From: Gemmatimonadota bacterium
GTDB taxonomy: Bacteria; 4572-55; J002
Reading direction: 5' to 3'
Assembly: GCA_003697105.1 (NCBI GenBank)
Contig: RFFQ01000157.1
Location: 1-9,100, forward strand
DNA: 9,100 nt
The notes under the pieces are model-generated. The model searched no databases. It saw only the letters and a program-made list of their open reading frames with translations, and was not told the DNA's origin. This document shows, piece by piece, positions 1 to 8,767 of the stretch. Each line of letters opens with the position of its first letter. Within the stretch, counting starts at the first letter, position 1. Both the position numbers and the translations under genes were made by a program.

Positions 1-900
1 ATTCGAGGTGTAGCGTCACCGGTACAAGTGGGGAATATGTGGCTTTTCTTTCTGACCGTTTATTCCAACGAGGTGGTGGGTGAGATGATTCATTTTCAAA
101 CCTACGTATACGCCTTTGATGCGGTGGTACCGGTCATTGAGACTATCGAATTTGAGGCAAATCAGGTTATTGGGTCACCCACTGACCCCTTTGAATGGCA
201 CGCGGTCTATGTTCATTTACGTTTACCGGATCAATTTACCATTGTTGCTGAAAATGATCGAGTTCAGGAGGAATGTTTTGAGGTATGTGTGACCGATCCC
301 TACTTCACGGTAGAAGGGTTTGAGATTCTCAATACTCCCGTGACGGTTTATTTCTTGGAAGCAGGGGGGGTTCGGATGGATGTACCGGATTTTATTCAGG
401 TGGATTATCCTTCCACTTTTCAGGAGTGTGCTTCCGTCTGTTTTCAGTTGAATGCGGGAGATTCACGGTTGCCGGATGACGGTGTTGTTACGCTCTCTGG
501 AAATGTGGAATTTCGTAGCGAAAATGTTGACTCGGCGGGTGTTTCTGCGCCACTGGCGGTACATGTGCTACCGGATGTAGCCGGATCTACTTTGATTTTA
601 CTGGGCGATTTGGATGATCTAGAACTGATTGATTTGTGGCCCGTGGGTGACTTTAGCCGGGATGATTGTGTGGATGGGTTCGATTTGCTGACGATGTTGT
701 TTGCCTACAACTCGGAGCCGGGTGATGTCAATTGGAATCCGGTATGTGATGTTGCGTTAACTGGCTATAGCAACCGATTAGGGCACGATGGGCGTATCGA
801 TTTTTATGATTTATTACGTTTTGCGGTCTATTACGGGCAGGGGGATTGTGGGCGCGCCTATTTTCCGCCAGTACCACTGGACGGAGCCGATTCTGAATAA
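1..900 (+). CDS. Secreted multidomain protein with C-terminal dockerin-like domain (5' partial)
   Basis: The reading frame is open from the first base to a TAA at 898-900, so this is the last 299 residues of a longer protein; the GTG at 28 lacks a ribosome binding site and is probably internal. Residues about 1-195 are beta-rich and resemble an Ig-like or cohesin-like surface domain, but I cannot name the family. They contain two C-x3-C pairs (EECFEVC and QECASVC) about 51 residues apart. Residues about 214-280 resemble a type I dockerin: a first EF-hand-like loop (GDFSRDDCVDGFDLLTMLF), a GDVNWNP spacer, then a second loop ending HDGRIDFYDLLRF. The spacer between two Ca2+-loop repeats is typical of dockerin-like tails on secreted proteins outside cellulosomes. 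It is transcribed toward the pilin operon and shares no transcript with it. The function of the missing N-terminal part is unknown. Confidence 0.8.
   Translation: MRGVASPVQVGNMWLFFLTVYSNEVVGEMIHFQTYVYAFDAVVPVIETIEFEANQVIGSPTDPFEWHAVYVHLRLPDQFTIVAENDRVQEECFEVCVTDPYFTVEGFEILNTPVTVYFLEAGGVRMDVPDFIQVDYPSTFQECASVCFQLNAGDSRLPDDGVVTLSGNVEFRSENVDSAGVSAPLAVHVLPDVAGSTLILLGDLDDLELIDLWPVGDFSRDDCVDGFDLLTMLFAYNSEPGDVNWNPVCDVALTGYSNRLGHDGRIDFYDLLRFAVYYGQGDCGRAYFPPVPLDGADSE
646..837 (+). other. Dockerin-like paired EF-hand segment
   Basis: The first loop has D-x-S-x-D-x-x-V-D-x-x-D-L spacing, close to the dockerin F-hand consensus DxNxDGxVxxxDL. The second is longer and poorer: a D followed by about ten residues, then HDGRIDFYDLL. 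The hydrophobic helix after each loop (LLTMLFAY, LLRFAVYYG) fits the family. In dockerins the loops bind Ca2+ and the module binds a cohesin; no cohesin is identifiable here. Confidence 0.65.
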
Positions 901-1175: not shown

Positions 1176-3305
1176 TTACCGCTCTGTCCACGCCATGATT
1201 TCGTAATTGCGGTGGTCTTCTTCGGGCTCAATTTGCATCCGTATGACGGCTTCAATCCGGCGTACTGCCCGGCTTTTTTGTCCGGTCACTTCGGCTTCAA
1301 TAATACAACGGGGCAAATCCATGTTTTTGAGGGTATATGCGAGCAAATATTGTGAGTCGAGTTTGGTGGGCACGTCGGAGGAGAGGGCACCAGAACCGGC
1401 GATCATCTCTACGTAGCCATCTCCATCTAAGTCATGAAGAGCGACTCCGCCATAAAAGGAAGGGGCGGATTCCTCCTCAAAGGCGATCCGCAAATAGGTG
1501 CCTAACATGGTGCCACTGGTATAATCAAAGTCAAGCACGACAAGATGGGATGCGGTATTAAAGAGTGTTCCGTAAACCATTTCCAATTCCGGGTCATTAT
1601 CCAAATTACGGAAGTTGATAGGACCGGTAATTGATTCTCCAACGGGTTCGGTCATGCTATAGACTTCCACATAGGCACCGACACCCGTGATCAGATTGAT
1701 ATTATCCACGGCAGTGGAGGTTTCCCACGGCTCCCAGTCGAGCGCATCTCCGGCAGTTCCACCGGCAAATGCGTCATCATAGCTGATGTGAAAGGCTTTG
1801 ATCTCTCCATTTGCCTCCACGATGATTTCTGGAATGCTATCGGTATCCATATCGATATTGAAAACCTCAATAGGGAGGGTCATGCACGGGTCTTGTGTGG
1901 TAGTGTTGACCGGAATCCGCACATCATTGATGGTAATCGTCATATCGTTACGCCCTTGATCATCAAGGACCACCAGATAGCCATCAGTTGATCCGAAAAT
2001 GACTTCTTTATCGCCATCCAGTTCGTTGTTAGCATCAATATCAACATCGGCAACGGAGGGTTGGGGGTTGTAAAAGGCGGTTTTGGGTAGAAAGTGGTCG
2101 TCATCCGTAAAATCACCGCTGGCGTTTTTGTTTTCCATTCCTACCGGATAGCGCCACCGTTCCTGCCAAGTGTTGTCATATTCATCAAAACAGAAGATAA
2201 AATAGCCATTACTGGCGATAATCTCATTGGCGTGATCTGCTCCGACCCGTGAGCCCCCGTTGACATCGGCAAACACCGGACGGCTATGGGCATAACCGAT
2301 ATAGCTAACGCCAGAATCATCCGTAAACTTGGGGATTTGTACTTGATCGATTACCGTACCGTCATCTTCCAAAATGACAAGCTCTGCCGCCGTTGCTGTT
2401 AAAGCGATAAATGCCACTTCGCGGTTGGGTTCATCAAGGGGAACCCATTCCCGGTTGACCGGATCGTATCCCCACTCGTCACTATCAATCTCACCGGTAG
2501 TGGGTTCGGCGTAGTAGCCGTTCAGGTTGTAATCAACGCTACCGGAACCGGCGTATGTCCAATTTTGGCTGCCATCGGGGGCAAAGCAATAGAGCGTATT
2601 GCCACCTACCACCAGCAATTCTACAGTGCCATCATTATCTAAATCTTCAACCACTATTCCGCCGTAGATTTCACCGATGGCGCTGGCAAAAACCGGTTGT
2701 GATGGGTGCGGCTCCAATTGGTAGCGCACCATTGTTTTGCCGTAATTATTTTGATATTCGGCCAACTGGTAAATGTAGCGGTAAATATTACCCTGATCGG
2801 TGGCAACTAGCACATCCATTTCACCGTCATCATCTAAATCCAATACCACGGGTTGACCCCAGATGTTATCTTCACCCATTTCTACCAGCGAAACATAAGG
2901 CGATTTATCGTCAATCGGGTTACTGGCGGGGATGTACTTAGTGGGGATGCGATAGATTGATAGCTCCACATCAAAATTTTCGGCGGAACCGGAACTATCA
3001 ATGAGAGTGTAAGTGGTATCGATGCGCCCGCCGTTGATCATGACCTGTTCGTAGGTGTCCGGGTAACCATCCGGCGGGTTGTCACTATCTACGCCGTGCA
3101 AAAATTCATAAACGTAATCATCCAGAATGGTTTCGGTCTGATAAAATGCCCGCACCCCGACGGATTCAATGAAACTGCTCTCCGGCTCTATCCCGGACAT
3201 GATCAAAAATGCCGTGCCGAGCAGGGACATAATGACCAGTGCCATCAAAACAATGATAAACGCGGAACCGTTTTGTTGATTTAGATGATCCATGATCCAG
3301 ACCAT
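1176..3305 (-). CDS. PilX/GspK-like minor pilin with seven-repeat FG-GAP beta-propeller
   Basis: This is 709 residues and probably the filament-tip subunit. A short leader ends in Q-N-G at residue 13, followed by SAFIIVLMALVIMSLLG, a prepilin-type membrane helix like PilX_N or GspK. Position +5 after the glycine is Ile, not Glu, as in tip pseudopilins. Residues 45-130 look like the pilin helix and first strands. Residues about 145-655 hold seven acidic D-x-D-x-D-G-like motifs (near 156, 221, 347, 420, 485, 569, 627), each followed by hydrophobic strands, as in integrin-type FG-GAP/VCBS propellers; seven repeats imply seven blades. Residues 668-692 return to a PilX/GspK-like strand pair. The propeller therefore appears inserted into the pilin head. 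PilX/GspK proteins are usually about 200-350 residues, so the insert accounts for the excess. The ATG at 3305 lies 4 nt after the upstream stop; an ATG at 3293 giving a nine-residue leader is equally plausible. Neither has a clear Shine-Dalgarno, which suggests translational coupling. Confidence 0.85.
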   Translation of the reverse strand: MVWIMDHLNQQNGSAFIIVLMALVIMSLLGTAFLIMSGIEPESSFIESVGVRAFYQTETILDDYVYEFLHGVDSDNPPDGYPDTYEQVMINGGRIDTTYTLIDSSGSAENFDVELSIYRIPTKYIPASNPIDDKSPYVSLVEMGEDNIWGQPVVLDLDDDGEMDVLVATDQGNIYRYIYQLAEYQNNYGKTMVRYQLEPHPSQPVFASAIGEIYGGIVVEDLDNDGTVELLVVGGNTLYCFAPDGSQNWTYAGSGSVDYNLNGYYAEPTTGEIDSDEWGYDPVNREWVPLDEPNREVAFIALTATAAELVILEDDGTVIDQVQIPKFTDDSGVSYIGYAHSRPVFADVNGGSRVGADHANEIIASNGYFIFCFDEYDNTWQERWRYPVGMENKNASGDFTDDDHFLPKTAFYNPQPSVADVDIDANNELDGDKEVIFGSTDGYLVVLDDQGRNDMTITINDVRIPVNTTTQDPCMTLPIEVFNIDMDTDSIPEIIVEANGEIKAFHISYDDAFAGGTAGDALDWEPWETSTAVDNINLITGVGAYVEVYSMTEPVGESITGPINFRNLDNDPELEMVYGTLFNTASHLVVLDFDYTSGTMLGTYLRIAFEEESAPSFYGGVALHDLDGDGYVEMIAGSGALSSDVPTKLDSQYLLAYTLKNMDLPRCIIEAEVTGQKSRAVRRIEAVIRMQIEPEEDHRNYEIMAWTER
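1341..2858 (-). repeat. Seven degenerate FG-GAP-type propeller repeats (protein level)
   Basis: The motifs are DLDDDGEMD, DLDNDGTVE, a degenerate DVNGGSRVG copy, DVDIDANNELDGDKE (expanded loop), IDMDTDSIPE, LDNDPELE and DLDGDGYVE. Repeats 1, 2 and 7 keep the full Ca2+-loop pattern; 3 and 4 have lengthened loops; 5 and 6 lack the loop glycine. The copies are divergent, so this is an old propeller, not a recent tandem duplication. Confidence 0.75.
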
Positions 3306-3309
3306 ATGA

Positions 3310-6300
3310 TTAGGGTTGGCATGTTTTATTACCTCTGTTATTCACACAATTTCCGCTACAGCATTCGTTATTGTTTTTGCAGGGGTCTCCGTTTGCCACA
3401 CAACTGGCGGCGTCATTGTCCACGATGGTAATGGTGGCGGTTGAGGGTGAACCGACGGTATAACCGGTTCCGGCGTCCAGTTGTAAAACAACGGTCTCGT
3501 CACCTTCATCATCGGCATCATCATTAACCGAAATGGTAAGGGTTGTGGTTAGGTCTCCTGCCAGAATAGTGGCGAAGCCGGTCACCGTAAAATCAGACCC
3601 TTCCGTGGCGGTTGAACTACCGCTATTGAAACTGTAACCGATTGTTAAATTTGAGGTGGGCGCGCAGGACGCGGTAATGCGCATAGACCCGTCGGTGGCA
3701 GGCTCTGCACCGTTGGTTAAAGCGGAAAGTGTCACAATAATCGCACAATCATCGCTTTCGATGGTGACCATGTCTGAACTGGCAGAGGGATTCACATTGT
3801 AATCTGGCGTATCAACCAGCGCTAAGGTGAGGGTTTCATTTGCTTCTTCATCACTGTCATCTAACGCGGAAATCACGATAACCAGCGAATCCACGCCGGA
3901 GATGTTGTAAGTATTGGTATTGAGATGATCCAGAGTATAACCGGTACCATTGATGGTAGCACTATAATCACTAAATTGTACCAGACCGGCCGAGGCGAGA
4001 GCATCAAAATCGACATAGCTTGGTGTGCCGTTTGTCCAGCGGATGATAAACGTCCCGGATGTTGGTCCGGCTTCGGTGGCGATGGGATCGGTGGCTTCGA
4101 TACTGACGAGCGGGTCGGTGGCGTCATTATCCACAATAGTGACGGTGGCGGAAGCCGGTGTGCCGATTTCATACCCCGTGCCGGCGGCTAACTTCAATGT
4201 TACCACTTCATTGCCTTCATCCAGTGTATCATGATTCGGGGTGATCGGGATTGTTGCGGAAGCACTCCCTGCTGGAATGGTTACGCTAGTACCAATGTTG
4301 GTATAATCGATCCCCGTGGTTGCTGTATTGCTGGCAGAATTATCAATGGTAAAATTAACCGGAAGCGGGTCGGTTGCGGTACAAACCGTTCGGGTCACGG
4401 TAAACAGTCCGACGGTTTCATCGCCACTGGTACCGTCGGTGGGTTCGGCGGCATTTGCGGTGGCGGCGATGGTGACAACACAGTCGTTATCACCGATGGT
4501 CAGCGTGGCGGAAGATGAACCGCCACCTAAATCATAGTCATTTCCAGAATCGATCAGGGTGAGAATCACCGTTTCATCCCCTTCGCCAAGGGCATCATCA
4601 ATGACCGAAACCGGAATTGTGACGGATGAACTGCCGGAACTCATGCTCACGCTGCCGGATAGTGCCGTATAATCAGACCCATTTGTGGCACTGCCGGAAA
4701 CGGTATAAGTGACACTAATTGTATTTCGTAACAGGCAACTGCCGCTGGTGCGAACGGTGAATACGCCGTTGTCAGGTCCGGTTTCGCTGGCGTTGCCATC
4801 AGTGACTTCTACGTAGATATCGGGTCGGGGTTGGGGGCATTGTGTTCCGCCGCCGCCACTACTGCCGCCACCGCCGCTGCTACCGCACGTGCCCGGACAA
4901 CTGGGATTTTCGATCACGACGACTTCATCTACACAAATTCCGCCGGAACCACTTTGACCGGGGTCGAATCCAAAGCGCCCCCAGCCGAGGCTGGCAATCG
5001 CGTCATAATCGCTGATATTGGCGGACTTGACATTATCTTTGTGGAAAAACCAATCGCACCGGTCATCCGGTAGAGATTCGCCATTTTCGCGCCAGATATG
5101 CCCGTAAATACGGTTGGAATCTGCACAGACGGTGACCGCCATGTTGCCCCATTCCCCGGTACTAAAATAGCCGTTAGACGCATTGCTACTCAAAGAGGCT
5201 TTGTAGTTACTGCCATTCACGCGACCTTCCAGTGCTAACCCGCTATTTCCTTGATAAGACATTCGGGCCCAGTTGTTTTCATCCTGATACCAAAAGGTGA
5301 GCGCCGTTTGCGGGGCGGAGCCGCCATCCAACCCTTTCCATTTGAAATTCATCATAATGGTGTAATCGGTGTTGGTATTGGCATCAAAGGAGCTGGAGTC
5401 TCCCCAGACGGTCTGCAAGCCGCTACCATGATAACACCGGAAATAGGAATTTCCTTCGGCACAAATGGGTTTTCCATCCAGACCTAAAGGATAGGTGACA
5501 CCGGTAATGGGGTCGGTACAACAACTGCTGGGGTCGCAACTGGAATCATCACAATCAACGCAGTCATAGGTAATTTCCCATTCAGCACCTTTATCATCCC
5601 AGTTGGATTCATCGACAAAATTGTCATAGGCTAAACTGGGTAGATTGTCCCACTGGCAGCCGCCCAAACAACTGGTTGTATCGGCTTCATAGGCGGTTTC
5701 ACAATCGATGTACGCTTGGCGGGAGACCATTGATGATCTGCCGGTGGTATCGACCACCCGCACCACCAGTTGGCCATCCATAGCGGCGCAACAGAAGCCG
5801 AAATAATCATAGGGGTCAAAATCCAATTGGCTGCCGATATAGTACACTTCGGCACTATCAATCGTGCCTGTTTCGCCGCCAAAATCGTAAGACCCTTTTC
5901 CTTGTAAATCGCTGATATATGCACTCAAATCGACGGTATCTCCCGCGGCACTTACCCAATAGACTTCAATGCTGTCAATGCCGGCATCTTCATCATACAA
6001 GTTCAGGGTCATACTGTATGGGGTACCACAATAGAGTGTATCGGCGGTATTACCGAGGCTATCAAGGGGAGTAATATCGGGGACGGGGTCTCCTTCTGCC
6101 ATGCCTAAAATGATCGTGGGGGCCGGGGGTTCTTCCCAGTTGAGGGTTTGGCGCAACCGGATATCGGTTGAAAGTTTCCATGTGCGCGGGTTCTCTCCGC
6201 TATCGGTGGGGTCTTCCTTCAGTTCCAATGTCACGTGTACGCGCCGGATGTTCACCCGATCTTCCAGAGAAATGGGTAACGCCAGCGAATCACCGCGGAT

Positions 6301-6783
6301 ATCGTAGTAGGTAAAGGCAAGTGTTTTCACATTTTCGACCAAGGCGGTGGCATTGGGATACGTCCGGCTACCCTCCTCCGTGATGGTAAAATCTTCCCGA
6401 AACAGGGTATCATTTCGGACAAAATAGCGGATATGTTCCCCCACATCATTAAAATCGGCATCCCCGTAGCGGTAGGTGGAATCATTCGCCACATTTTTGG
6501 AACTCAGGTCGGACATGAATTCAAGGGTATTGTAGTCGGTGGTAATGAAGGGGGTAATCAGGGTGCCCTCCGGACCCGTGCCGGCTTCGCGGAGTTCCCG
6601 AACCAGTAAATCGAGCATTGCCCGGGCATTTTGCTGGGTTTCGATCTTTAGCTGACCCCGGTTGTATGTTTCTTCGCTCGTGGTGGCGATCATTAAGATC
6701 ACCCCAATCACCATGGCGATGATGGTAGCGGCAATGATGAGTTCCACAAGTGAAAATCCCCGGCGAGAGCGTGACACTGGCAT
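3310..6783 (-). CDS. PilW/GspJ-like giant modular pilin: lectin-like, Calx-beta and knottin-like modules
   Basis: This is 1157 residues; ordinary PilW/GspJ proteins are about 200-350. The leader MPVSRSRRG is cleaved before FSLVELII, with Glu at +5 and a hydrophobic helix to about residue 33. Residues 40-215 are a typical PilW/GspJ body (QNARAMLDLLVRELREAG, later VRRVHVTLEL-like strands). Residues about 218-362 look Ig-like. Residues 361-450 are rich in Cys (ten), including CVDCDDSSCDPSSCC. Residues about 384-627 resemble a concanavalin-A-like lectin/LamG fold. A Gly/Ser linker follows (634-646), then four Calx-beta domains (about 655-767, 768-887, 890-1011, 1012-1124) and a six-Cys tail (1128-1155). 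GAGGAA eight nt before the ATG supports the start. Grafted modules on pilins are known, for example the lectin-like module of Streptococcus sanguinis PilC. I infer an adhesin displayed near the pilus tip. The ligand is unknown. Confidence 0.88.
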   Translation of the reverse strand: MPVSRSRRGFSLVELIIAATIIAMVIGVILMIATTSEETYNRGQLKIETQQNARAMLDLLVRELREAGTGPEGTLITPFITTDYNTLEFMSDLSSKNVANDSTYRYGDADFNDVGEHIRYFVRNDTLFREDFTITEEGSRTYPNATALVENVKTLAFTYYDIRGDSLALPISLEDRVNIRRVHVTLELKEDPTDSGENPRTWKLSTDIRLRQTLNWEEPPAPTIILGMAEGDPVPDITPLDSLGNTADTLYCGTPYSMTLNLYDEDAGIDSIEVYWVSAAGDTVDLSAYISDLQGKGSYDFGGETGTIDSAEVYYIGSQLDFDPYDYFGFCCAAMDGQLVVRVVDTTGRSSMVSRQAYIDCETAYEADTTSCLGGCQWDNLPSLAYDNFVDESNWDDKGAEWEITYDCVDCDDSSCDPSSCCTDPITGVTYPLGLDGKPICAEGNSYFRCYHGSGLQTVWGDSSSFDANTNTDYTIMMNFKWKGLDGGSAPQTALTFWYQDENNWARMSYQGNSGLALEGRVNGSNYKASLSSNASNGYFSTGEWGNMAVTVCADSNRIYGHIWRENGESLPDDRCDWFFHKDNVKSANISDYDAIASLGWGRFGFDPGQSGSGGICVDEVVVIENPSCPGTCGSSGGGGSSGGGGTQCPQPRPDIYVEVTDGNASETGPDNGVFTVRTSGSCLLRNTISVTYTVSGSATNGSDYTALSGSVSMSSGSSSVTIPVSVIDDALGEGDETVILTLIDSGNDYDLGGGSSSATLTIGDNDCVVTIAATANAAEPTDGTSGDETVGLFTVTRTVCTATDPLPVNFTIDNSASNTATTGIDYTNIGTSVTIPAGSASATIPITPNHDTLDEGNEVVTLKLAAGTGYEIGTPASATVTIVDNDATDPLVSIEATDPIATEAGPTSGTFIIRWTNGTPSYVDFDALASAGLVQFSDYSATINGTGYTLDHLNTNTYNISGVDSLVIVISALDDSDEEANETLTLALVDTPDYNVNPSASSDMVTIESDDCAIIVTLSALTNGAEPATDGSMRITASCAPTSNLTIGYSFNSGSSTATEGSDFTVTGFATILAGDLTTTLTISVNDDADDEGDETVVLQLDAGTGYTVGSPSTATITIVDNDAASCVANGDPCKNNNECCSGNCVNNRGNKTCQP
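3319..3402 (-). other. C-terminal six-cysteine knottin-like module
   Basis: Residues 1128-1155 follow the spacing C-x6-C-x5-CC-x3-C-x8-C, ending two residues before the stop. This matches the inhibitor cystine-knot framework (C-C-CC-C-C) of conotoxin-like and spider-toxin-like knottins. The core is CKNNNECCSGNC. The fold is inferred from spacing only. In a secreted adhesin it is more likely a stable binding head or protease-resistant cap than a toxin. Confidence 0.6.
3412..4821 (-). repeat. Four tandem Calx-beta domains (protein level)
   Basis: Each unit ends in a D-N-D or D-D motif (GDND, VDND, ESDD, VDND) and carries the acidic signature before the penultimate strand: GEGDETVILTL, DEGNEVVTLKL, EEANETLTLAL, DEGDETVVLQL. 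Each also has the SDY/IDY/SDF element typical of Calx-beta. The family binds Ca2+ between domains and forms rigid extended rods. Unit 3 is the most diverged, with an insertion near residues 928-962. Confidence 0.85.
4846..4884 (-). other. Gly/Ser linker between lectin-like and Calx-beta modules
   Basis: Residues 634-646 are only Gly and Ser, with a perfect SSGGGG duplication. The run is bracketed by Cys residues (CPGTC before, C649 after). It separates the lectin-like module from the Calx-beta rod and is probably a flexible hinge. Confidence 0.8.
4903..5634 (-). other. Concanavalin-A-like lectin/LamG-type module
   Basis: Residues about 384-627 alternate strands and turns as in ConA-like jelly-roll domains: an opening DNFVDESNWDDKGAEWEI, a YTIMMNFKWKG strand, LTFWYQDENNWARMSY, GEWGNMAVTVCADSNRIYGHIW, then GRFGFDP and a closing CVDEVVVIE. 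The W-x-N-x-x-V-x-V strand and the final D-E-V-V-V are characteristic. Such modules usually bind glycans or extracellular protein. Confidence 0.65.
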
Positions 6784-6828: not shown

Positions 6829-7272
6829 TTATTGGCGTCGTTTTGTGGATTCGATCCGGTAAGTGCGGTCTCCATTCCGTCCGCGCCATTCAATCCAGAC
6901 GGTTAGCCCTTTAACAATGATGGTGTTATCCTCTTCGGCGTATTTTTCATCGGTGATCGTCCAATAACGGGTGGCGTAGCGATCTATCACGGTTTGATCA
7001 TCAATGGCGACGGTATCGGAATACGTGCCGGCAGTTAAAGCCGGATCGACGTAAATAGAATCTCCTGAGGCATAAAACGGTAGGGCTTTAAGTTCTTCCA
7101 TTTTATCCTGTGCGAGGATGGTGGCGCGGGTTTGCCGTTTGCCGTAATCGATCTCGGTTGTGCCGCGGATAAACATATTAAAGATCGCGATCAAGCCAAA
7201 CGCGAAGATGGCGATCGCGATCACAATTTCGATCAATGAAAATCCTGCCGATTTTGCATTCATCCGTGACAT
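6829..7272 (-). CDS. PilV/GspI-like minor prepilin (second copy)
   Basis: This is 147 residues, the usual size for the family. The leader MSRMNAKSAG precedes FSLIEIVIAIAIFAFGL, with Glu at +5 and a membrane helix to about residue 33. The helix continues through RQTRATILAQDKMEELKALPF, the Q/S-x-x-x-x-x-A-x-x-L-A-x-x-K-M-E-x-L-K pattern of PilV and GspI. A short beta domain ends in VWIEWRGRNGDRTYRIES. It would sit in the inner membrane until assembled into the filament, contacting its GspH- and GspJ-like neighbours in the tip complex. The ATG is three nt from the stop of the upstream gene, so coupled translation is likely; an in-frame ATG at 7263 would give a shorter leader. It resembles the first gene of the operon but lacks that protein's Cys/His insert. 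Confidence 0.88.
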   Translation of the reverse strand: MSRMNAKSAGFSLIEIVIAIAIFAFGLIAIFNMFIRGTTEIDYGKRQTRATILAQDKMEELKALPFYASGDSIYVDPALTAGTYSDTVAIDDQTVIDRYATRYWTITDEKYAEEDNTIIVKGLTVWIEWRGRNGDRTYRIESTKRRQ

Positions 7273-7275
7273 GGT

Positions 7276-7788
7276 TTAGCGCTCTTCTTTGGCAATTTTG
7301 GGAAAGCCGGCAATACTCACACTGATGTACTTTTTACGAGGGGTATTGGGCAAGCTCACTTCAATCATATTTTGAATCGAACTCGGTTCGGCATATCCTC
7401 TATTATTGAACACGACAAATGTATCCGCATAAGAAACACGAACGGTCGGGGGTAGATAGAGCAGATATTCACCTGCACCCCGATTACCGGCATCATCATG
7501 ACCGATAGCTTGGACGGGTTCCCATTCCGCATTATCGTTCAGCCGCTCCATGTAGTAGCCATTTTCATACTCGCCAAAATTAAGACGGTAAGGGCGATGT
7601 TCCCGCGTTGCCCGTTGTTTTGCCTGATGCAGATGGGTAATGATTTGCTCCGCCGCCGCATCCAGCCGCTGGGTTTGCAATCGTTTTAAGTATGTGGGTG
7701 AACCAATGGCAATCATAATACCCAAAATCGCAATGACGACGACCAATTCGATCATGGAAAATCCGTTTTGATGTTGATCACGTTTCAT
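7276..7788 (-). CDS. GspH/FimT-like minor prepilin
   Basis: This is 170 residues from the chosen ATG. The leader MKRDQHQNG is cut before FSMIELVVVIAILGIMIAIG, with Glu at +5. The segment RLDAAAEQIITHLHQAKQRATREHRPYRL is the GspH/FimT/FimU signature (A-x-x-L-x-x-x-L-x-x-A-R/K-x-x-A). The C-terminal half is beta-rich, with FNNRGYAEP and VSIAGFPKI strands as in GspH heads. In type II secretion and type IV pili this subunit joins the GspI/J/K-like tip complex. I chose ATG 7788 because AAAGGG lies eight nt upstream; a GTG at 7797 would add three residues but overlaps that Shine-Dalgarno. It lies 34 nt after the helix-turn-helix gene and three nt before the next prepilin. Confidence 0.9.
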   Translation of the reverse strand: MKRDQHQNGFSMIELVVVIAILGIMIAIGSPTYLKRLQTQRLDAAAEQIITHLHQAKQRATREHRPYRLNFGEYENGYYMERLNDNAEWEPVQAIGHDDAGNRGAGEYLLYLPPTVRVSYADTFVVFNNRGYAEPSSIQNMIEVSLPNTPRKKYISVSIAGFPKIAKEER

Positions 7789-7796
7789 GAAAATCA

Positions 7797-7802
7797 CCCT
7801 TT
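7797..7802 (-). promoter_or_regulatory. Ribosome binding site that decides the GspH-like start
   Basis: AAAGGG is eight nt before the ATG at 7788 and overlaps the alternative GTG at 7797, which therefore has no usable ribosome binding site. Confidence 0.6.
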
Positions 7803-8182: not shown

Positions 8183-8767
8183 CTAGGTTCCCAATTGGTA
8201 ATACGTTCGATACGTTCGTAGCCGGTATTCCCGCAGGTTGTGTCTGCCTTGCCATTCCACGACTACTTCAATTTCCAGCGGCGGGATGGTGCCATCTTCG
8301 GGGCAGGGACCTAAGGGGTCGCCATGTCTCACGTGGGCTGGTAGGGCGTTCCGGCTGACGGAGAGGGTCAACCGTTTTTCCCCGTTATGTCCCGGTGGCT
8401 CATGGCAAATCGTGATCTTTTTGCCATCATTTTCAAACGGTCCCCCTTGGATCGTCCAGTGGCGCACGTATGGCACCGGATCGGTTTCTGGATTGCCATC
8501 TTCATCGATATAAACCGTATCCTGATGGGCGCCATGGTCTAAGAGGCAGTGTTCCTGAAGCAGGCGTTCACCGGTGAACGGTTCCGTTTTGAGCTTTTCC
8601 ATCAAGTCACTGGCCAGGTACGTTGCCCGGCTCTGGCGGGCGGCAAAATCGATCTCGGAGTAACTATTGGTGAACATACTCAAGAGCATAATTAGAGCAA
8701 AAGAAAGCAATGAAGCGGCAATCACAACTTCAACCAAGCTGAATCCATTTTGTTTTTGCGGTTTCAT
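8183..8767 (-). CDS. PilV/GspI-like minor prepilin with inserted Cys/His mini-domain
   Basis: This is 194 residues and the first gene of the operon. The leader MKPQKQNG precedes FSLVEVVIAASLLSFALIMLL, with Glu at +5. RQSRATYLASDLMEKLKTEPF continues the helix and aligns closely with the second PilV/GspI-like protein (RQTRATILAQDKMEELKALPF). The tails also align (EVVVEWQGRHNLREYRL against VWIEWRGRNGDRTYRI), so the two are paralogues. Between them, residues about 116-156 form an extra module: KKITICHEPPG, then LTLSVSRNALPAHVRHGD and LGPC. This matches a recurrent C-H-x-P-P-G ... A-H-x-x-H-G-D-x-L-G-x-C element of bacterial surface proteins, whose function I do not know. GGAGG four nt before the ATG is a strong ribosome binding site. 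It could be a tip subunit displaying a metal-binding or disulfide-stapled surface. Confidence 0.88.
   Translation of the reverse strand: MKPQKQNGFSLVEVVIAASLLSFALIMLLSMFTNSYSEIDFAARQSRATYLASDLMEKLKTEPFTGERLLQEHCLLDHGAHQDTVYIDEDGNPETDPVPYVRHWTIQGGPFENDGKKITICHEPPGHNGEKRLTLSVSRNALPAHVRHGDPLGPCPEDGTIPPLEIEVVVEWQGRHNLREYRLRTYRTYYQLGT
8303..8422 (-). other. CH-PPG...AH..HGD...C mini-domain within a pilin
   Basis: Residues 116-155 hold C121, H122, the PPG turn, H145, H148 and C155. Two Cys and three His in 35 residues suggest a bound metal or a single disulfide with a conserved His face. I recognise the pattern from C-termini and linkers of many secreted bacterial proteins, where it usually reads CHxPPGN...HTxxVSxxAxxAHLxHGDxxGxC. 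The ligand is not established to my knowledge. Confidence 0.75.

Follow-up and report, generated by a model that had tools for sequence, protein, structure and literature searches.

We identified a 709-aa minor pilin that combines, in one chain, a PilX/GspK-type stem and a β-propeller of the FG-GAP type, predicted to have eight blades. The protein probably belongs to a type IVa pilus as a minor pilin of the tip type, in which the inserted propeller acts as the ligand-binding head of the tip and a single chain does the job of both PilX and PilY1. The first-pass annotation of this DNA had proposed a PilX stem joined to a PilY1-like propeller with seven blades. The main idea of that interpretation holds, whereas the blade count and the propeller family had to be corrected.

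Gene organization and pilin stem

The window, i.e. the whole stretch of DNA that was analysed, is a complete contig of 9,100 bases (C35) from a 4.18-Mb draft genome of Gemmatimonadota, which consists of 199 contigs and is 96.85% complete. ORF calling and translation placed the gene at exactly 1176-3305(-) (Table 1). It is the last gene of a minor-pilin operon and starts 4 nt past the stop of the preceding pilin gene. The next ORF on its other side is convergent; hence, no operon gene follows it. This convergent ORF (window 1-900 (+), cut at the contig start) ends in two stretches that look dockerin-type or EF-hand-like (GDFSRDDCVDGFDLLTM... and GHDGRIDFYDLLRF...), for which Pfam gave no match.

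The N-terminus of the product, MVWIMDHLNQQNG/SAFIIVLMALVIMSLLGTAFLIM, consists of a prepilin leader and a hydrophobic stem with the junction QQNG/SAFIIVLMALVIMSLLGTAFLIM. Position 5 of the stem is Ile and not Glu. The tip complex of minor pilins has a capping subunit without Glu5 (reviewed in PMC10191384). A PilX/GspK-type tip pilin is recognized by a prepilin leader with a hydrophobic N-terminal helix lacking Glu5 and by neighbours of the FimT, PilV and PilW types in a minor-pilin operon. Both were found here. This agrees with the first-pass description of the N-terminus, although it is the paralogue described below, and not the window protein on its own, that reached the cut-off of PilX_N (Pfam). 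Searched up to E 1, the window protein did not match the GspK model NF037980 (NCBIfam). The pilin stem and the FG-GAP repeats are the features that we set against the modular-pilin definition of Raynaud et al.

Table 1. Features annotated in the window, with the basis of each assignment.
Feature	Position	Strand	Basis
PilX/GspK-type modular minor pilin with inserted FG-GAP propeller, 709 aa	1176..3305	-	ORF, FG-GAP_3 match, full-length paralogue P0002
Prepilin leader, residues 1-13, MVWIMDHLNQQNG	3267..3305	-	Sequence; paralogue junction QESG/SAL of like type
Stem helix alpha1 (hydrophobic, lacking Glu +5), residues 14-70	3096..3266	-	Sequence; model helices 13-36, 42-70; PilX_N match of the corresponding part of the paralogue
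First pilin β-hairpin (predicted), residues 94-119	2949..3026	-	Model strands 94-101, 111-119, modest pLDDT
Eight-bladed FG-GAP β-propeller (predicted), residues about 130-660	1326..2918	-	Blade HMM with shuffles, repeat register, model, fold match
C-terminal pilin hairpin (predicted), PilX/GspK-like end, residues 666-709 and stop codon	1176..1310	-	Model strands 666-675, 681-689; C-terminal comparison with PilX_N proteins
PilW/GspJ-type pilin, 1157 aa, Calx-beta domains, modular partner	3310..6783	-	N_methyl; Calx-beta 90.3 bits; weak T2SSJ; counterpart P0003
PilV/GspI-type minor pilin	6829..7272	-	N_methyl; TIGR02523 below cut-off
GspH/FimT-type minor pilin	7276..7797	-	GspH 25.0 bits; paralogue in second operon
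Small ORF inside pilin operon, 111 aa	7823..8158	-	Weak helix-turn-helix match
Second PilV/GspI-type minor pilin	8183..8767	-	58% identity to counterpart in second operon

Repeats and predicted fold of the propeller

The window protein matched FG-GAP_3 (Pfam) with 29.2 bits (cut-off 26.9). With a blade HMM derived from FG-GAP proteins in the source genome and in other genomes, four of its blades scored 29.1, 31.4, 13.1 and 18.4 bits, compared with 2.8 bits for the best of 200 shuffles. FG-GAP motifs start near residues 156, 221, 347, 420, 483, 567 and 625. A degenerate third blade lies at about residue 296, and its counterpart in the paralogue does resemble an FG-GAP repeat. Column by column, the repeats are in register with those of eight-repeat FG-GAP proteins.

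An AlphaFold2 model based on an alignment of 24 sequences reached a pLDDT of 67.4 and a pTM of 0.67, while a model from the two paralogues only was unusable (pLDDT 30.6). The usable model places helix alpha1 (13-36, 42-70) first, followed by strands 94-101 and 111-119, the propeller at about 138-660, and strands 666-675 and 681-689. In VIA-align, the top match of the model was the designed propeller Cake8 (Z 32.1, 2.2 Å, 317/320 residues), so that a closed propeller fold is predicted. The chains that came next included Tako8, Bagel8, BamB, Fbw7 and YxaL, which are eight-bladed as well. By repeat register and predicted fold, the propeller thus has eight blades and not the seven counted in the first-pass annotation. 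The rows of the usable alignment had been picked for eight-repeat FG-GAP proteins; therefore, the count from the model is only partly independent and may be biased.

A profile search of PDB sequences also matched the designed Cake propellers, and searches with single proteins found nothing useful there. Foldseek placed other propellers on top, with poor global superposition. Propeller matches filled this Foldseek list, so the missing pilin matches do not count as evidence.

D-x-D-x-D loop motifs occur in most blades. These loops, together with the analogy with PilY1, make calcium plausible, and the propeller probably binds it through them. PilY1 binds calcium with an EF-hand-like motif in its C-terminal domain, and this motif is important for function (PMC8833165). 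The source genome contains 112 FG-GAP_3 matches across many large proteins. Judged by its repeats, the inserted propeller is of the ordinary FG-GAP type that is abundant in this genome, and the FG-GAP-rich genome itself is a possible origin of the domain.

A paralogue in a second minor-pilin operon

A second minor-pilin operon was found on contig C172, and its final gene encodes an 805-aa paralogue (P0002) of the window protein. The two proteins align end to end (BLASTP E 8e-21 in a single comparison, 22% identity). The paralogue exceeded the Pfam cut-offs of both PilX_N (36.0 bits, cut-off 25.5) and FG-GAP (36.8 bits, cut-off 22.1), and has the leader junction QESG/SAL.

Both operons contain GspH/FimT, PilV, a large PilW and a propeller pilin. 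Between the operons, PilV-type partners share 58% identity, but the propeller pilins only 22%. This difference would fit a faster change in an exposed binding head, although other causes are possible. With one such tip-type pilin in each of the paralogous operons, the genome probably provides for two tip specificities.

The PilW-type partner is very large and modular in both operons, with 1157 aa and Calx-beta domains in the window (3310-6783(-)) and 1798 aa with an Ig-like Big_7 domain in the second operon (L007 7239-12635(-)). The two have mainly their N-terminal pilin part in common.

PilY1 in the source genome and in other genomes

A profile search for PilY1 (PF05567) gave no match in the draft source genome, the window and the pilus locus included. 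This agrees with the first-pass statement that the window contains no PilY1-like gene, and extends it to the genome. At E up to 1, neither the window protein nor its paralogue matched PF05567. We therefore rejected the reading of the propeller as PilY1 itself. 'PilY1-like' denotes a functional analogy and not homology, since the sequence does not match the PilY1 propeller family. Of the earlier proposal of a PilX stem and a PilY1-like propeller in one chain, the combination of stem and predicted closed propeller thus stands, while the family is FG-GAP.

The same search found PF05567 in 23 of 145 genomes, but neither in the source genome nor in a sister genome, the only other one of the phylum that we compared. 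In six genomes (G026, G064, G084, G086, G093, G096), a PilX_N gene of the same strand precedes the PilY1 match by no more than 10 kb, and in five of these six the PilX frame measures 209-304 aa. The sister genome has a compact PilX of 189 aa followed by a separate secreted protein. This secreted-looking protein (L040 3-1793(-), cut by the contig end) carries PPC and Golvesin_C domains and occupies a place after PilX that PilY1 often takes.

Position of the propeller and type of machine

After the propeller, about 45 residues follow (CIIEAEVTGQKSRAVRRIEAVIRM...YEIMAWTER), in which the model predicts the last two strands. This end is similar to that of some PilX/GspK-like proteins, most clearly L033 (...YTIVAEGQVEGSRIYRQIRAVVQV...VQVLHWDD). 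In pairwise tests of the C-terminus, the best score of the window protein was reached by 5 of 500 shuffles and its top-five sum by 1 of 500. For the 805-aa paralogue, 132 and 57 of 500 shuffles reached the corresponding values. An HMM built from six PilX/GspK-like C-termini did not find the end of the window protein. A motif close to the end, with W or Y and then x-D/E, was present in 6 of 20 PilX_N proteins versus 2 of 133 other open frames. The strand order of the model fits a pilin sheet made from both sides of the insert, where pLDDT is about 55-70 only, and the C-terminal similarity is modest. Hence, the chain likely returns to the pilin fold after the propeller, and its four pilin strands may form one sheet. 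In the first-pass annotation, the last 40 residues were likewise described as returning to pilin-like strands and the repeats as inserted into the pilin head. The predicted position of the propeller before the last pilin strands, and not C-terminal to everything, is in line with both.

The pilin fold might instead be complete before the propeller begins, with the propeller appended to it in the manner of PilB of Streptococcus sanguinis. The strands preceding the propeller could make a minimal head, model confidence is low in that region, and the C-terminal end shows a modest likeness to other PilX proteins. However, the two strands predicted after the propeller, the PilX/GspK-like end and an equivalent end in the paralogue make this arrangement quite unlikely. 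A different question is which machine the operon serves. It could serve secretion, forming the tip either of a type II pseudopilus or of a secretion-dedicated type IV-like system, with the propeller pilin as a GspK-like cap that recruits secreted substrates and is not an adhesin. For several of the operon pilins, GspH, GspI or GspJ models match about as well as pilus models; the paralogue matches GspK (NF037980) weakly, and the pilin head of GspK likewise contains an inserted domain (PMC8179133). This GspK score of 20.8 bits is nevertheless far under the cut-off of 130. Furthermore, the source genome has type IVa machinery with four PilT-family ATPases over cut-off, PilM and a PilQ-like secretin, and one locus unites PilT, PilM and the PilQ-like secretin with pilins. 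These findings point to type IVa pili, and we regard a secretion system as distinctly improbable. Assembly ATPases were seen in neither of the minor-pilin operons, so that linkage does not tie them to one machine. The core type IVa locus also contains a third large tip-type candidate, a PilX-like protein of 563 aa (L209 10989-12677(-)), without any Pfam (including FG-GAP) or NCBIfam match.

A third alternative accepts the tip of a pilus but assigns the propeller another task, as a spacer or as a platform on which a further, unrecognised secreted tip protein docks. PilY1 propellers act as carriers of variable N-terminal modules (PMC8179133), and the secreted PPC/Golvesin_C protein of the sister genome follows PilX. 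In the source genome, however, neither operon has a large secreted protein directly after the pilin gene. The next gene in the window is convergent, and in the second operon the propeller pilin is followed by a 181-aa protein and then a sensor-kinase-like protein. We consider a mere spacer or platform unlikely, and prefer a propeller that is itself the ligand-binding head.

Proposed function

In the preferred reading, the FG-GAP propeller would follow the second strand of a PilX/GspK-type pilin head and precede the third. The stem without Glu5 would cap a bundle of GspH/FimT-, PilV- and PilW-type minor pilins from its own operon, and the capped bundle may prime pilus assembly. The propeller would be too bulky for the shaft and should therefore be displayed at the tip, in analogy with ComZ, for which such an argument was made, and with GspK. 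Above the bundle, it could bind a surface ligand, and calcium in the D-x-D-x-D loops probably adds to its stability. A single chain would thus perform the role of PilX and PilY1 with a propeller of another family, and the strand-complementation joint between PilX and PilY1 would have become covalent. It is quite possible, but short of probable, that the lineage replaced a two-protein PilX/PilY1 tip by one PilX-type chain with a foreign eight-bladed FG-GAP propeller, duplicated it for two tip specificities, and is devoid of PilY1.

If true, propellers of different families can occupy the same place at the tip, which would hint at how some type IVa pilus systems manage without PilY1. Moreover, the joint between PilX and PilY1 is known largely from models, and a single-chain version that occurs in nature would be easier to study structurally.

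Comparison with known systems

Modular pilins are widespread, with more than 1,200 proteins in 264 architectures (PMC8179133); hence, extra domains on pilins are in themselves not new. An insertion of an FG-GAP propeller into a pilin head is not described in the literature that we searched, which covers the field in part, and this architecture may already figure in supplementary lists of modular pilins. No FG-GAP match was obtained at E up to 0.01 in 20 further PilX_N proteins of large size, taken from distant genomes. The GTDB contig collection, scanned twice, yielded no relative, so that the architecture could not be traced outside the source genome.

Eight-repeat FG-GAP proteins of diverse bacteria have the same repeats and register as the window protein. 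However, most of those collected end in W...F...TG.Y after the last repeat, an end that the window pilin lacks, and no PilX-type stem was seen among them. PilB and PilC of S. sanguinis resemble it as pilins with a domain from outside pilus biology, which in PilB is likely at the tip. In PilB, the vWA module is C-terminal and loop-linked, whereas that of the window protein is predicted to be inserted in the head (PMC8179133). GspK of type II secretion is also a tip subunit with an extra domain in the pilin head (PMC6561018; PMC8179133). Its extra domain is alpha-helical and not a propeller, and neither of our two proteins reaches a GspK model at cut-off.

A structural parallel in placement is offered by ComZ of Thermus thermophilus, in which a large repeat domain likewise interrupts the sheet of the pilin-like head, close to where the fold ends C-terminally, and whose place at the tip was argued on structural grounds from this domain (PMC6561018). 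The insert of ComZ is a DNA-binding β-solenoid between the penultimate and last strands, while the FG-GAP propeller is predicted to precede the last two strands. The PilX and PilY1 tip complex shares with the window system a PilX-type pilin, a minor-pilin operon and a propeller at or near the tip, a place that the window protein presumably also takes. For Myxococcus and others, a joint by β-strand complementation has been predicted between PilX and PilY1 (PMC13190605). That complex consists of two proteins, and its PilY1 has a seven-bladed PF05567 propeller with a variable N-terminal domain. In contrast, the window system has one protein, with a predicted eight-bladed propeller of the FG-GAP type.
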